Of a stretch of 64,000 bases of DNA, positions 33,864 through 40,128 are shown one piece after another. The notes beneath the pieces are model-generated. The model was not told where the DNA came from and made no database searches. It was given only the letters and a program-made list of their open reading frames with translations. A program made the position numbers and the translations under genes. The DNA is from Verrucomicrobiaceae bacterium (GTDB taxonomy: Bacteria > Pseudomonadota > Gammaproteobacteria > Pseudomonadales > CAMLJR01), in NCBI GenBank assembly GCA_028293825.1, contig JAQGNY010000053.1:62001-126000 (forward strand), written 5' to 3'. The stretch's first letter is position 1, and each line of letters starts with the position of its first letter.

Positions 33864-34379
33864 TTATTTTGCAACGATGACGCCGCAAGCCACGCGTCCA
33901 CCGGAATTGCCGGTGGGTTGCGTTTGAAAATCGTCGGCATTTGCATGAATGATTACCGCTTTTCCGATAATGCTGGTATCGCCCTGCAGTGCCAACGATT
34001 CCAACTCGACGTGCAATTTTGCGCGACCGTTGGCATCGGCGATCAACATTGGCATGTCGCCAACATGGTGCGCACCGCTGGTGGGGCTGCCGTGTTGCGC
34101 GCCGGTTGGATTGAAATGACCGCCGGCGCTAGTGCCATCGGCGGCGCTGCAATCGCCTTTTTCATGAATATGAAAGCCGTGCAAACCCGGCGTTAAATCT
34201 TTGATATCGCCTTCGACCAATACCTTGCCATCATGTTCGCTAAATACAACAGTACCGTTCGCCGCATTGCCCTGCGTCGGCGCTAAAGTCGCCTGCGCAG
34301 CTAACCGCGCCGGGGACGATGCCATCGTGCACCCTGCCAAAGTAGCTACTGCACAAACTGCCAATAATGTTGCTCTCAT
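33864..34379 (-). CDS. sodC: Cu/Zn superoxide dismutase, lipoprotein form
   Basis: A 171-residue periplasmic superoxide dismutase. Copper and zinc ligands are visible in GFHIHEKGDC, GGHFNP, QHGSP, GAHHVGDMP and VIIHANADDF, with the active-site arginine in SGGRVACGVI. The N-terminus has a lipobox (LAGC near residue 16), so it is probably membrane-tethered. GGAGG lies 8 bases before the ATG at 34379. It protects the envelope from superoxide. Confidence 0.95.
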   Translation of the reverse strand: MRATLLAVCAVATLAGCTMASSPARLAAQATLAPTQGNAANGTVVFSEHDGKVLVEGDIKDLTPGLHGFHIHEKGDCSAADGTSAGGHFNPTGAQHGSPTSGAHHVGDMPMLIADANGRAKLHVELESLALQGDTSIIGKAVIIHANADDFQTQPTGNSGGRVACGVIVAK

Positions 34380-34637
34380 GGTGTTGCCTCCTGTTGTTAT
34401 GGTGGCGCTCACTGTAAATCATTTCCTGAGTCAGCAACCAATTGAAATTATCGCGGACGTAGCACGTAAAACCAATTTTCCCGGCATTAGCAGAGACTTA
34501 AAATTGCTATTTAATGTGTCGGTGAGCGAATGGAGCTACATAAATAAGCCTGCGTGGCTGCGGTACTAATTCGCGACGCAAGCGTTCGACATAAATTATT
34601 CGGGATAATTTAATCGGCGTTAACAATTAAATTATTT

Positions 34638-35249
34638 TTAGTTAAATAATTTCGCAGCGAGAGTGCTAAATGCGGAAGGCTCAATGGCGAGTATCCACAA
34701 CACGCCGAATAGAGCGCCGGCGAAATGCGCATCGTGATTGATACGCCCACCGCTGCGTCGACCGGCATAGAAGCTATAAGCGAGATAACCGATCGCGTAC
34801 AGCCACGCCGGAATCGGTATTGGCAACGGCATCATATAAATCGTATGGGTCGGATAAAATATTACGTGCGCGAAAATAACGGCCGATACGCCACCGCTGG
34901 CACCGAGGGTCGCGTAGTTCATATCGTTGCGGTGCAGATATAAAGACGGCAATGAACTAAAAATAATTGCTATTAAATAACCGATAACAAAGGCGCTGGT
35001 GCCAATATGTTTTTCCAGCGCAAACGCAAAAAAATAAAAGCTGAACATATTGACCAGCAAATGGCCCATGCTGCCGTGCACAAAACCGCTGAGATATAAG
35101 GTATCGAAATGTCGGCCACGCCATACCTCGTAAGGACGCAGAACACATTTATTCAGAATGGCAGGATTCGCAAACAGCGTGAGCAAACTAACTGCCACAG
35201 TGATGAGAAGAACAATCCATGCGCCGATATTATTTTGAAAATCGATCAT
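34638..35249 (-). CDS. Rhomboid-family intramembrane serine protease
   Basis: A 203-residue protein with about six membrane helices. The rhomboid marks are HGSMGHLLVNMFSFY (N67), the catalytic serine in GASGGVSAV (S118) and the histidine in NHDAHFAGALFG (H175). It is short but complete for a bacterial rhomboid. By family it cleaves membrane substrates. It is 6 bp downstream of the DUF2167 gene, so probably co-transcribed with it. Confidence 0.87.
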   Translation of the reverse strand: MIDFQNNIGAWIVLLITVAVSLLTLFANPAILNKCVLRPYEVWRGRHFDTLYLSGFVHGSMGHLLVNMFSFYFFAFALEKHIGTSAFVIGYLIAIIFSSLPSLYLHRNDMNYATLGASGGVSAVIFAHVIFYPTHTIYMMPLPIPIPAWLYAIGYLAYSFYAGRRSGGRINHDAHFAGALFGVLWILAIEPSAFSTLAAKLFN

Positions 35250-35255
35250 TGAATT

Positions 35256-36143
35256 TTATTCGGCTTTAGAGCGAAATAATTTGCGGAACAGCGCACCGAT
35301 GGCAACAACAGCAATTACACCGAATTTTTTCAGCAACAATAATCCAGCCGCAAAGAGCCCGGTTTTTGTTAGCACGGTACCGGCAATTAAACCACCGATT
35401 CCATAAGCGGCGACTTTATCCAAGCTCGGATTAAACTCTTCGTAGCGATGTCCCTGCTCGAAATTCGCCAAAGCCAGTACTTGGTCGAGCTTCGATTCGA
35501 TCATCGGCTTTTGCTCCATACCCGCGATAAAATTCAACACCAACACACCTTTTCTGCCGAGCATACGAATGCTGTAATTCAACGTGTGTACTTTATCGTC
35601 GCCGAATTGAAGCTCGCGCGCCCAATATAATTTATGCGTGGCTTTATCGTAATGCGGCGGCGCGGCCCAACCGACTAATGTGATCGGCTCGAAGCCGTCT
35701 TTTTTTCGCTCAGTATTATTTGCTTCCGTATCCTTCTGCATGTCCTTCAGCAAATCGGAATAATTAATATCGGCGGCATCTTTATCCGACACGTAACCGT
35801 CTTCCTCATACGCAATCGTCACGCCCCATGCGTCGGCATCGAACGGGTTCATCCCTGTCGGGAACAACATTCCCAACATCTTCGCACCAGACGGATTGCC
35901 CCACGCTTCGGTCAACACCCGCGCGGAATCGGCAGGATTCAAATAATAAAATTGGTCGGGGATTTTTAAACTGGCGACACCATTCGGGAGTTGTATATCG
36001 CCCTGCTTACGCTCGATCGAATTCCAGAATTTTTCCGCCCACGCTTTGTATTGCGCGGGATCTTTCGGTGCGGTTGATTCAGCCAATGCCTGAAGCGATA
36101 GAAATCTAGATAGGCAAAAAAATAGGCTCTGAAAATTTTGCAT
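35256..36143 (-). CDS. DUF2167 membrane protein
   Basis: A 295-residue protein of the DUF2167 family with a signal peptide ending near ALAEST, a periplasmic domain (QGDIQLPNGVASLKIPDQFYYLNPADSARVLTEAWGNP in part), and a C-terminal hydrophobic region (AAGLLLLKKFGVIAVVAIGALF). Function unknown. ATG 36143 has AGAG 8 bases upstream; the TTG 13 codons earlier is rejected. It precedes the rhomboid gene by 6 bp. Confidence 0.83.
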   Translation of the reverse strand: MQNFQSLFFCLSRFLSLQALAESTAPKDPAQYKAWAEKFWNSIERKQGDIQLPNGVASLKIPDQFYYLNPADSARVLTEAWGNPSGAKMLGMLFPTGMNPFDADAWGVTIAYEEDGYVSDKDAADINYSDLLKDMQKDTEANNTERKKDGFEPITLVGWAAPPHYDKATHKLYWARELQFGDDKVHTLNYSIRMLGRKGVLVLNFIAGMEQKPMIESKLDQVLALANFEQGHRYEEFNPSLDKVAAYGIGGLIAGTVLTKTGLFAAGLLLLKKFGVIAVVAIGALFRKLFRSKAE

Positions 36144-36227
36144 TTTTGAAACTCTATTTAATGATTGAATTTTGCAGCTCAACCGCGCTTATGGTTTAGC
36201 GATTGAGCTGCAAGAGAAGAACAACGG

Positions 36228-38759
36228 CTAGCGGGTAATGTACATTGCGTTGCTGGTGCTCAGCATCAAGCGTTCCGGAACTGAAGATTCGGCCGCTGCG
36301 CGATGCAGATTGCCGCTAGCAACGGGGCCAATTAATGGCGGAGACTGCCAATCCTGCGATCCCGTTATCGCGTCAAACTGGGAAAGTAGATACTTGCTAA
36401 CGCCGGTATTTGGATTTGTTACAGTCGTAGCAATCAGCAGTTTTCCCGATCCGTCACCGATCTCACCAATTGCCGTCACAGTACCGGTTATCGAAAAACT
36501 GCGAAGCTGTGTCAAATTTTTATCAAATACGATTAATGTGTAATTGCCGGTGTAGGAGTCTGGTTTTGCTAAAATAATTTCTGGAATATGATCTCCGTCT
36601 AAATCACTCACTAATACCTGAGTTGTTGAATAGCTATTAAAGGTATAGCGTCCACGTTCAATATATGAATTCCCCAAAGCGCCATAAATAATCAGGTCTT
36701 GCCACGTTATCGCGACGATCTCATTTTTACCGTCTCCATCGAGATCTGCCTGAATGACCTTCAGCGCCGTGCTATTTAAGGTAAAGCCGCCCCAAATTTG
36801 TTGGTCGTTAAAAATATCGTAAGCAATGACACGATTATCATTGGCCCGCACAACATCGGGGTGGCCGTCACCATTCAAATCACCGCAGCTTATGCTGGCG
36901 GAGGAGTTCGAGTAGTTATTTAATGTTTTCGACCATTTGGTAGACTTCGTTACAGGATCAATTGCAGCAAAAAAAGGCGAATACGAATTAAATGTGCTGA
37001 AGAGAATTTCATTTTGACCATCTAGATCGTAATCCGTTAAACAGATATCGAATGTCGAATTATAACTTTGAGTAATCGTAGGAGAAATTTCCAATTCGCC
37101 GCTGACCGCATTCATAAAAACAACCCTGGCATCATTGCCGTAGTTGTAATCCACGTTTGCTGCAAATATCGCCGCAATTGACCCACCGATATTTTGCGAA
37201 TATCCGCCGACATAGGGAGGACGCAATTGCAGAGTATTCTGATCGGGAAATAAAACTGTCTGCGTAGACAAATCGTAAACTGTTACTGCCTTGGTGGAGG
37301 ATGCGGGCAAATTCGCGATCAATGCCATATCAAGATGACCATCGTCATTCGTGTCGCCGACAACGATATTTTTAACATCCCCATATCCAATGCCAACACT
37401 ATCGGTCCGTTTTAAAACCGGACCATTGCTGGTAACGTCATAGGCGGTGACGGTCTGATTCTGACAACTGCCAACAACTATTTCTTTAGCGGCATCGCCA
37501 TCCAGCTGGGTGAGCGCAATTGAACATATACCGGCGGACAGCGGGGTTTCCCATACCGGCGATTGTAGAACCGCGCTGTATGTACGCAGAGAAGAAACCC
37601 CTGCGCCGGCACCAATAATGTCATCTATACCATCGCCGTCTACGTCGCCAATAGCGATACGCTCACCGAACCCCGGCGAATACGTCCATTGAATGGCGTG
37701 TGTGATTCCATCAAAGACGTACCCCGCCGAATATCCGCCCGATACCACGATTTCAAGCGCGGCATCGTTATCGACATTGCCAACGGCTAACGCACTAACA
37801 TATGCCATCGGTTCCGATCGCCATTTTTCGACGAGCGTAGCTGCGTCCAAAACTATCAGCTCTGCCGAACCGGAATTATTTATAAGGATCGCCAATTCTT
37901 CCTTTCCGTCGCCATCCAGATCAGCGGCAACGATTCCTCCGCCGCTGCTGCTTCCATAAATATTCGTTTCTCGAATCTTTGTCCGTCTAAGCACTTGGTC
38001 AGTGCCATATTTAATTATTGCGACAACGTCAGAACATTGAACGGCTATGTCGCGCGATCCATCCAGATTTCTTTTTAGCGGCGCGGTGGCCGTAATATCT
38101 TGGCCGCAAATATCGTATGGAAAAACCCAATTTTGTTTATATGTTCCATTGGAGTTTTGCAGTGAATATAAAAGCCTAGCGTTATCGGTAACTAATATTT
38201 CCGTTTTGTTGTCGCCGTCGAAGTCGCCGATTTTCATACCGCCGTCATTGGTCGGCGTCATTAATCCGATGCGTACCAGCGGAAACGATTTGATCGTCGA
38301 CCTTACGTGTATCGAAACTGGTATGTCGATAACGTGATCAGCGTTGCTGACTGTGACCGTCGCTGTTGCTTCGCTGGCGTTAAAGAATGGGTTTTCTGTC
38401 GGCGTCCAGGTTAAATGCCCACTCTCGTCAATCGCCATGTCGGTTGGCGCGCCAGTTAATGTATAGGTAGCAGGTAGCGCATTGCCATTCGTGGGCGCGA
38501 AATCGAGTGTTAATGGCGCGCCTGGCGTAGCCGCGATAATCGCATTGGGTTGTACCGATACAACAGGCGCATCAAATGGGACGTGCAACGTGACATTTGA
38601 ATCCGTTACGCCACCGCGCCCATCGCTCACGCTGAATTTCACCACGTAATCGCCTGGGCCAGACGTATGCACGTTAATGGTGGAATCGGCGGTTATGCTC
38701 AATTGCATGTCGACATTATTCGGCGAACTGACGGCGCTTGCCCAGTAACTAATAAAATC
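36228..38759 (-). pseudogene. FG-GAP/VCBS repeat protein, 3' part of a split gene
   Basis: About 843 codons in the same frame as the next entry, separated from it only by an in-frame TAG at 38760-38762. The text after the stop (DFISYWASAVSSPNNVDM) continues a PKD/cadherin-like domain that begins before it, ending GDYVVKFSVSDGRGGVTDSN. A second Ig-like stretch follows, and then about nine calcium-type DxDxDG FG-GAP repeats (GDFDGDNKTEILV, ADLDGDGKEELAI, GDVDGDGIDDIIG and so on), probably a beta-propeller. A local start at ATG 38708 has no good ribosome binding site. If translated at all, this half lacks a signal peptide. Confidence 0.7.
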
Positions 38760-39830
38760 CTAGTCCAAATCCCCCGCCGAGATAGCGATGTGATAATCGG
38801 CATTCGCTGCCGAGGTCAGCTGCGGCTGAATGTACGAAAAAGGCGGCGTATTGCTATCGTCGCTCGGGAATGGCCACACGCTGGCAGAACCTAGGTACGC
38901 ATCGAAACTCTGATCGCCGCCGACATCGAGCGCGTAGTGCGAAGAACCACCGTTGCTGTCGAAATCGATTTGGATTTTCGTTGTATCGCTACCAGAGAGA
39001 TAGCTGCGAGTTGCTAGCGACGCGTCAGTGCTTACCGTGACGTAGCCAATATTGGAATCGGCAACATGACCGACTCGATTATCGGCTGCGACATTGAAGG
39101 CTGGTACCTCTGGAGAATACGTGGATACAAAATCGGTTGCTTTAATTAAATAATTTTCAGCGGACGAAGAGACCACCATATTTGTAACGGCTGTTATTTT
39201 GCCGCCGTCTTCTGTCACTACCGTGGTGCCGTTGTAGGCCATCGTAAAAGCATAGAGAAATTGCGGATTGGTGTTCACAACCGCGTAGTTTTCGAACGCG
39301 AAATCAAAAGCGGTTGGAATTTTTTGGCCGTCCGTCTCACGAATGGTCGTACGTACGACGCCGGTATATTTGCTGCCGTAGCCATCTTCGCAATCATTGT
39401 AAGAAATTTTCAATTCACCGACGCTGGTGGCCTCGTTAAATGTTCCTTGCGAAGTCACGGAACCTTTCACGCACACCGAGGTTAGATCGACAACGATATT
39501 GCCGTTGCTATGCGTATTGGTCGAATTATTCAAAATGGAGTTAGGACCACTGAATGATGCTGGCGTTGAGAGAACTACATCATCCGAAATACCAGAAAAC
39601 ATAGAATACGCGTGCGCGAAATGGCGAGCGTTGGTTCGCGTGATCGCGGCGGCTTGATCGATGGTCGGAACGGGTGGTGGGGGCGGTACAACGACAGGTG
39701 GTGTTGTATCAACAGGCGGTGTTTGAACGACAGCAGGCGCATCACTACCGCCTCCACCGCCGCCTCCACAAGCAGTTAAACCCGTGGCAACCAAACAAAT
39801 CACAGCAAAAAAAGAAGTACGGCGAGATAT
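38760..39830 (-). CDS. FG-GAP/VCBS repeat lipoprotein, 5' part of a split gene
   Basis: About 356 codons ending at TAG 38760-38762. The translated leader SRRTSFFAVICLVATGLTACGGGG is a textbook lipoprotein signal with a poly-Gly then proline-rich spacer (PPVVVPPPPPVPTID). However, the codon where its start should be (39828-39830) is ATA, with GGGAGAG five bases upstream and an in-frame stop shortly before. The only normal start is GTG 39803, which removes the charged N-region and leaves a 12-residue leader. The rest has several small repeats and cysteine pairs and no clear domain. Confidence 0.72.
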   Translation of the reverse strand: MSRRTSFFAVICLVATGLTACGGGGGGGSDAPAVVQTPPVDTTPPVVVPPPPPVPTIDQAAAITRTNARHFAHAYSMFSGISDDVVLSTPASFSGPNSILNNSTNTHSNGNIVVDLTSVCVKGSVTSQGTFNEATSVGELKISYNDCEDGYGSKYTGVVRTTIRETDGQKIPTAFDFAFENYAVVNTNPQFLYAFTMAYNGTTVVTEDGGKITAVTNMVVSSSAENYLIKATDFVSTYSPEVPAFNVAADNRVGHVADSNIGYVTVSTDASLATRSYLSGSDTTKIQIDFDSNGGSSHYALDVGGDQSFDAYLGSASVWPFPSDDSNTPPFSYIQPQLTSAANADYHIAISAGDLD

Positions 39831-40128
39831 AAGCTCTCCCTAGCTATCGGACAAAGTGAATGACGAAAACTATCAGCCCATCCTCTGTCTCGTCGGCGCC
39901 AAAAACTGCGCGTTCGAATGGGATGAGTCTGTTTTAGTTTGAAACGGTTTATACCGTTTGCGCGCTTATTCGACAACAGTGACGCGACGAGCGGCCCATT
40001 GATTTATTTTTTCCGCGCTTTATCAATGAGCCCACGAGAGCGTTCGATGTGAAAGTCTCGCAGGCACATTTCGTTGTCGGTTAGTTTTACTTTTTTATCA
40101 GTAGTCTTTTTTATCAGTAGTCTTTTTA
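39831..40128. other. Intergenic region with palindrome and tandem repeat
   Basis: No gene is supported in these 298 bp. They hold a perfect inverted repeat AAACGGT-TTAT-ACCGTTT at 39942-39959, possibly an operator or short hairpin, and near the right end a 16-bp tandem repeat (listed separately). The small minus-strand frames here have no ribosome binding site. Confidence 0.6.

Follow-up and report, generated by a model that had tools for sequence, protein, structure and literature searches.

FG-GAP repeat surface lipoproteins (PF13517, PF01839) are built from a lipoprotein signal, a Gly-rich linker and Ig-like domains, followed by many FG-GAP repeats. Pseudogenes of bacteria have been surveyed in Salmonella, where 346 of 378 carried a single lesion. 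Among these, the lesion was a premature stop in 131 and a changed start codon in two, in one case from ATG to ATA (PMC2916853). AUA can itself serve as a start codon. In Staphylococcus aureus, AUA starts behind a good Shine-Dalgarno site are reported to initiate at ~10% of AUG, and initiation of infC, ccpN and citZ at AUA was shown by ribosome profiling and reporters (PMC13009471). Anomalous codon usage is overrepresented among prokaryotic pseudogenes, and horizontal acquisition followed by failure has been described for them (PMC522871).

The locus considered here lies in a stretch of 64,000 nucleotides, referred to as the window. It holds a gene that has the same order of parts as the intact FG-GAP homologues and a length similar to their ~1,200 aa, but is interrupted by one TAG and has ATA instead of ATG (Table 1). 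The gene is very probably a recently inactivated accessory gene that formerly encoded a large surface lipoprotein; we infer the loss of function, its timing and a horizontal origin.

Table 1. Features of the disrupted FG-GAP lipoprotein gene, in window coordinates.
Feature	Coordinates	Strand	Description and basis
Entire disrupted FG-GAP lipoprotein gene	36228..39830	-	One register of 1,200 codons and final TAG; homologues have one gene of comparable length and layout
Shine-Dalgarno-like AGGGAGAG	39834..39841	-	Read in the sequence; GGGAG ahead of ATA
ATA in start-codon position	39828..39830	-	20 codons ahead of the lipobox cysteine; 12/14 homologues have ATG 17-24 codons ahead
5' part	38763..39830	-	Lipoprotein signal, Gly/Pro-rich linker, N-terminal beta region; ends within Ig-like domain; weak G007 match, right order
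Internal TAG	38760..38762	-	Predicted loop between strands of Ig-like domain; low-confidence model
3' part	36228..38759	-	Rest of Ig-like domains and FG-GAP repeats as beta-propellers; complete C-terminus, native TAG stop; Pfam, G007

Translation of the minus strand of the window gives a single register (39830-36231) of 1,200 codons, which runs without any frameshift along its whole length and contains exactly one internal stop. The terminator of the gene, at 36228-36230, is also TAG. The initial annotation had placed the 5' and 3' frames in the same register with only a TAG between them, and the minus-strand translation bears this out. Random DNA with the same composition would contain approximately 59 stops per 1,199 codons, so the shared register is not due to chance. 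FG-GAP repeat surface lipoproteins have a continuous reading frame; the internal TAG breaks that of the window copy, which is thus classed as a disrupted member of the family.

Homologues were searched for in related genomes and in a species-level genome collection. The resulting alignment consists of the window copy and 14 loci from 14 other genomes, in which a Geomonas pair and the pair G208/G287 are each near relatives. All 14 homologues, and a homologue in one further genome, are uninterrupted single frames of 965-1258 aa, and some of them sit in single-contig genomes. They share one layout: lipobox and N-terminal region come first, then Ig-like domains and FG-GAP repeats, and the C-terminus is common to all. 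Over 824 alignment columns, the 3' part of the window copy is 28% identical to the intact gene of genome G007; the match of the 5' part to that protein is weak (E = 7e-4) but in the right order. The TAG falls in the column of the residue that follows DPD in a DPD-G/N-D motif, inside a domain; none of the 14 homologues has a stop in this column or is split there. The relatives had been expected to carry one continuous gene with ATG, which agrees with what was found: the gene is uninterrupted in 14/14 and has ATG in the usual position in 12/14, among homologues that are only 20-35% identical to the window copy. A recent pseudogene should have intact homologues elsewhere, as is the case here. No close orthologue was found in the genomes searched, no intact paralogue in the same genome and no homologue in plasmid records.

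These comparisons bear on the possibility of two separate genes, or of a functional short lipoprotein of 356 residues. In its favour, the lipoprotein signal of the 5' part is complete and the 3' frame offers an internal ATG at 38708; against it, no Shine-Dalgarno site is evident ahead of this ATG, and a signal sequence is lacking in the 3' part. Since the homologues are single genes and the TAG lies inside an Ig-like domain, the locus is best read as one gene cut within a domain; the two-gene reading was rejected, and either of its forms is highly improbable.

Two observations concern individual homologues. The most similar homologue (L052, 35% identity; JAFGCU010000001.1) is on a contig labelled Anaerolineales, which may be mis-binned because most other homologues come from proteobacterial records. 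In genome G022, the record that holds L003 and L064 also carries L056 (5989-7656), in which the C-terminal 556 codons are preceded by no recognisable N-terminal part; this relative is an independent 5' truncation within the FG-GAP lipoprotein family, which also speaks for decay of the window copy.

The domain content of the two parts differs in how readily it is recognized. The 3' part matches Pfam FG-GAP_3 (PF13517) with E=1.8e-30 in 7 stretches; the FG-GAP repeats score well above the cut-offs, with 105.7 bits versus 26.9 for FG-GAP_3 and 72.7 versus 22.1 for FG-GAP (PF01839). No match to the 5' part was present in Pfam or NCBIfam. The initial annotation described a PKD-like domain running across the TAG. 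A domain does span the TAG, but the PKD label fits only approximately: Pfam gives no PKD match around the TAG, whereas the alignment, a sub-threshold Pfam match directly after the TAG and a low-confidence structural model all indicate an Ig-like domain. In this model of the read-through protein, an Ig-like sandwich has strands at 324-332 and 340-346, and the TAG corresponds to residue 336 in the loop that connects them (confidence in this region only ~55-60). A sequence search of solved structures found no relative, and a fold search returned only generic tandem beta-propellers, mostly eukaryotic proteins of WD-repeat type, that give no functional clue. Judging from its fold class, the intact protein was probably an adhesin or a ligand-binding surface lipoprotein.

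At the 5' end, ATA is the first codon of the lipoprotein signal ISRRTSFFAVICLVATGLTAC and follows a Shine-Dalgarno-like site, as first annotated. Its lipobox SRRTSFFAVICLVATGLTAC is read directly in the sequence and aligns with the signals of the homologues, which places the gene among those with a lipoprotein signal. No upstream start is usable because an in-frame TAG stands four codons upstream of the ATA. The nearest in-frame ATG, GTG or TTG is the GTG at 39803, within the hydrophobic core of the signal, and initiation there would remove the charged end of the signal. Use of a different frame for the start, with the T7 tract at 39813 as the link, was also rejected: by eye, neither of the other two frames shows an ATG, GTG or TTG in the interval from the Shine-Dalgarno site to the tract. 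In the two homologues without ATG at the usual distance, L054 has it at 29 codons and L070 is ambiguous.

The ATA may be a further lesion, but it may also be a native start of low strength, with expression lowered rather than abolished. Like the AUA-initiated genes of S. aureus, the gene has AUA behind a good Shine-Dalgarno site; in contrast to those genes, the ATA is here known from the DNA, and the homologues mostly have ATG. Given the initiation reported in S. aureus, the ATA may be less than a full lesion. A native weak start is a real possibility because the start codon is so small a mutational target (3 of 3,600 sites). The proposal of two lesions in one gene thus stands in full for the TAG, which is the firmer lesion, and in weakened form for the ATA.

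Amber read-through or recoding could yield a regulated full-length protein from the ATA start, and it would accord with weak AUA initiation and with the good conservation that persists on both sides of the TAG. However, the amber-suppressor tRNA that the initial annotation had proposed to look for was not found: none of the 34 tRNA genes found in the draft genome has a CTA anticodon. This survey is incomplete, in the draft or in the tRNA search, since several expected tRNAs (e.g. Trp, Tyr, Asp) were missed as well. Matches to PylS were only sub-threshold, as in most control genomes, and RF1 is present above its cut-off. TAG ends seven of the 69 gene calls in the window, two of which are the internal and final TAG of the lipoprotein gene, so TAG does serve as a stop in this DNA. 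With no suppressor tRNA or PylS over the cut-off, with RF1 present, with TAG at the gene's own end and with no homologue carrying a stop at that place, programmed read-through is very unlikely, and amber suppression and pyrrolysine were rejected. A deliberately low-level lipoprotein, with an AUA start and low-level amber read-through giving a short form and a rare long form, has only a very slim chance of being correct.

Large surface proteins are frequent targets of phase variation, and reversible on/off switching had been raised as a further alternative. Each of the two lesions is a codon substitution, and no simple repeat was found in the sequence at the TAG or the ATA; phase variation was rejected as extremely improbable.

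The extent of decay argues for a young break. Of the columns that are at least 75% conserved among the other members, 83% show the consensus residue in the window copy, compared with 65-84% in intact members. The break appears young because conserved residues have survived as well as in intact members and the frame is unshifted, in keeping with the little additional decay expected of a recent pseudogene. A neutral model with frameshifts at 5-10% of the substitution rate allows at most ~35-60 substitutions since inactivation, and up to ~190 if frameshifts are ignored; these values are rough bounds and not a dating. Under pure neutral decay, one stop and one start loss without other visible damage are somewhat unlikely, and the ATA may for this reason be native. 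The locus resembles the young pseudogenes of Salmonella in having a premature stop as the main lesion, few lesions and the rare change of ATG to ATA. In contrast to that survey, recency is judged here from the quality of the sequence only.

The lack of other damage in the gene is also what would be expected if the lesions were errors of assembly or consensus, or a mixture of strains, in a draft of 56 contigs, with the gene intact in the living cell. Such an error is the main alternative to a pseudogene, and an unlikely one: it needs two independent errors of substitution type in one gene, or one error and a native ATA, and both lesions are outside homopolymers, in which such errors cluster.

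The codon usage of the gene is atypical and its occurrence patchy, which points to horizontal acquisition and later failure in this lineage. Both parts score below all 39 other window genes scored for synonymous codon usage, which can also come from low expression alone. The family is patchy, being present at E of 1e-30 or better in nine of 390 genomes of the order, the window's own included. The lipoprotein gene was not found in one genus-mate genome (89% complete), whose matching contig ends nearby, so that a comparison of gene order gave no information. In synonymous codon usage, the DUF2167, rhomboid and SodC-like genes next to the lipoprotein gene likewise rank near the bottom; the first two labels were checked against Pfam and the third comes from reading the sequence. 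With these neighbours (33864-36182) sharing the atypical usage, the whole stretch of 33864-39830 may be one acquired segment. Its GC content is ~0.43-0.52, versus 0.54 for the window, and the DUF2167 neighbour has no match in the same genus-mate genome.

Recent decay of one large surface protein gene, as initially suggested, is the best-supported reading, with relatives that are single genes mostly starting with ATG and with conserved positions intact. The product of the original gene would have been a large lipoprotein on the cell surface, in which an N-terminal beta region was combined with Ig-like domains and FG-GAP beta-propellers. After horizontal acquisition the gene would have failed in this lineage, when a substitution made the TAG within an Ig-like domain. 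Any product would stop at ~30% of the length, and the remaining 3' part would have neither a signal sequence nor an evident ribosome site. The ATA would be a further lesion or, as a native start of low strength, would reduce expression. Most likely, the locus is an ordinary young pseudogene and not a new kind of decoding. A gene caller would list two shorter proteins instead of one broken gene. The locus is one more case of an atypical surface gene with a patchy distribution that was apparently lost soon after its acquisition.
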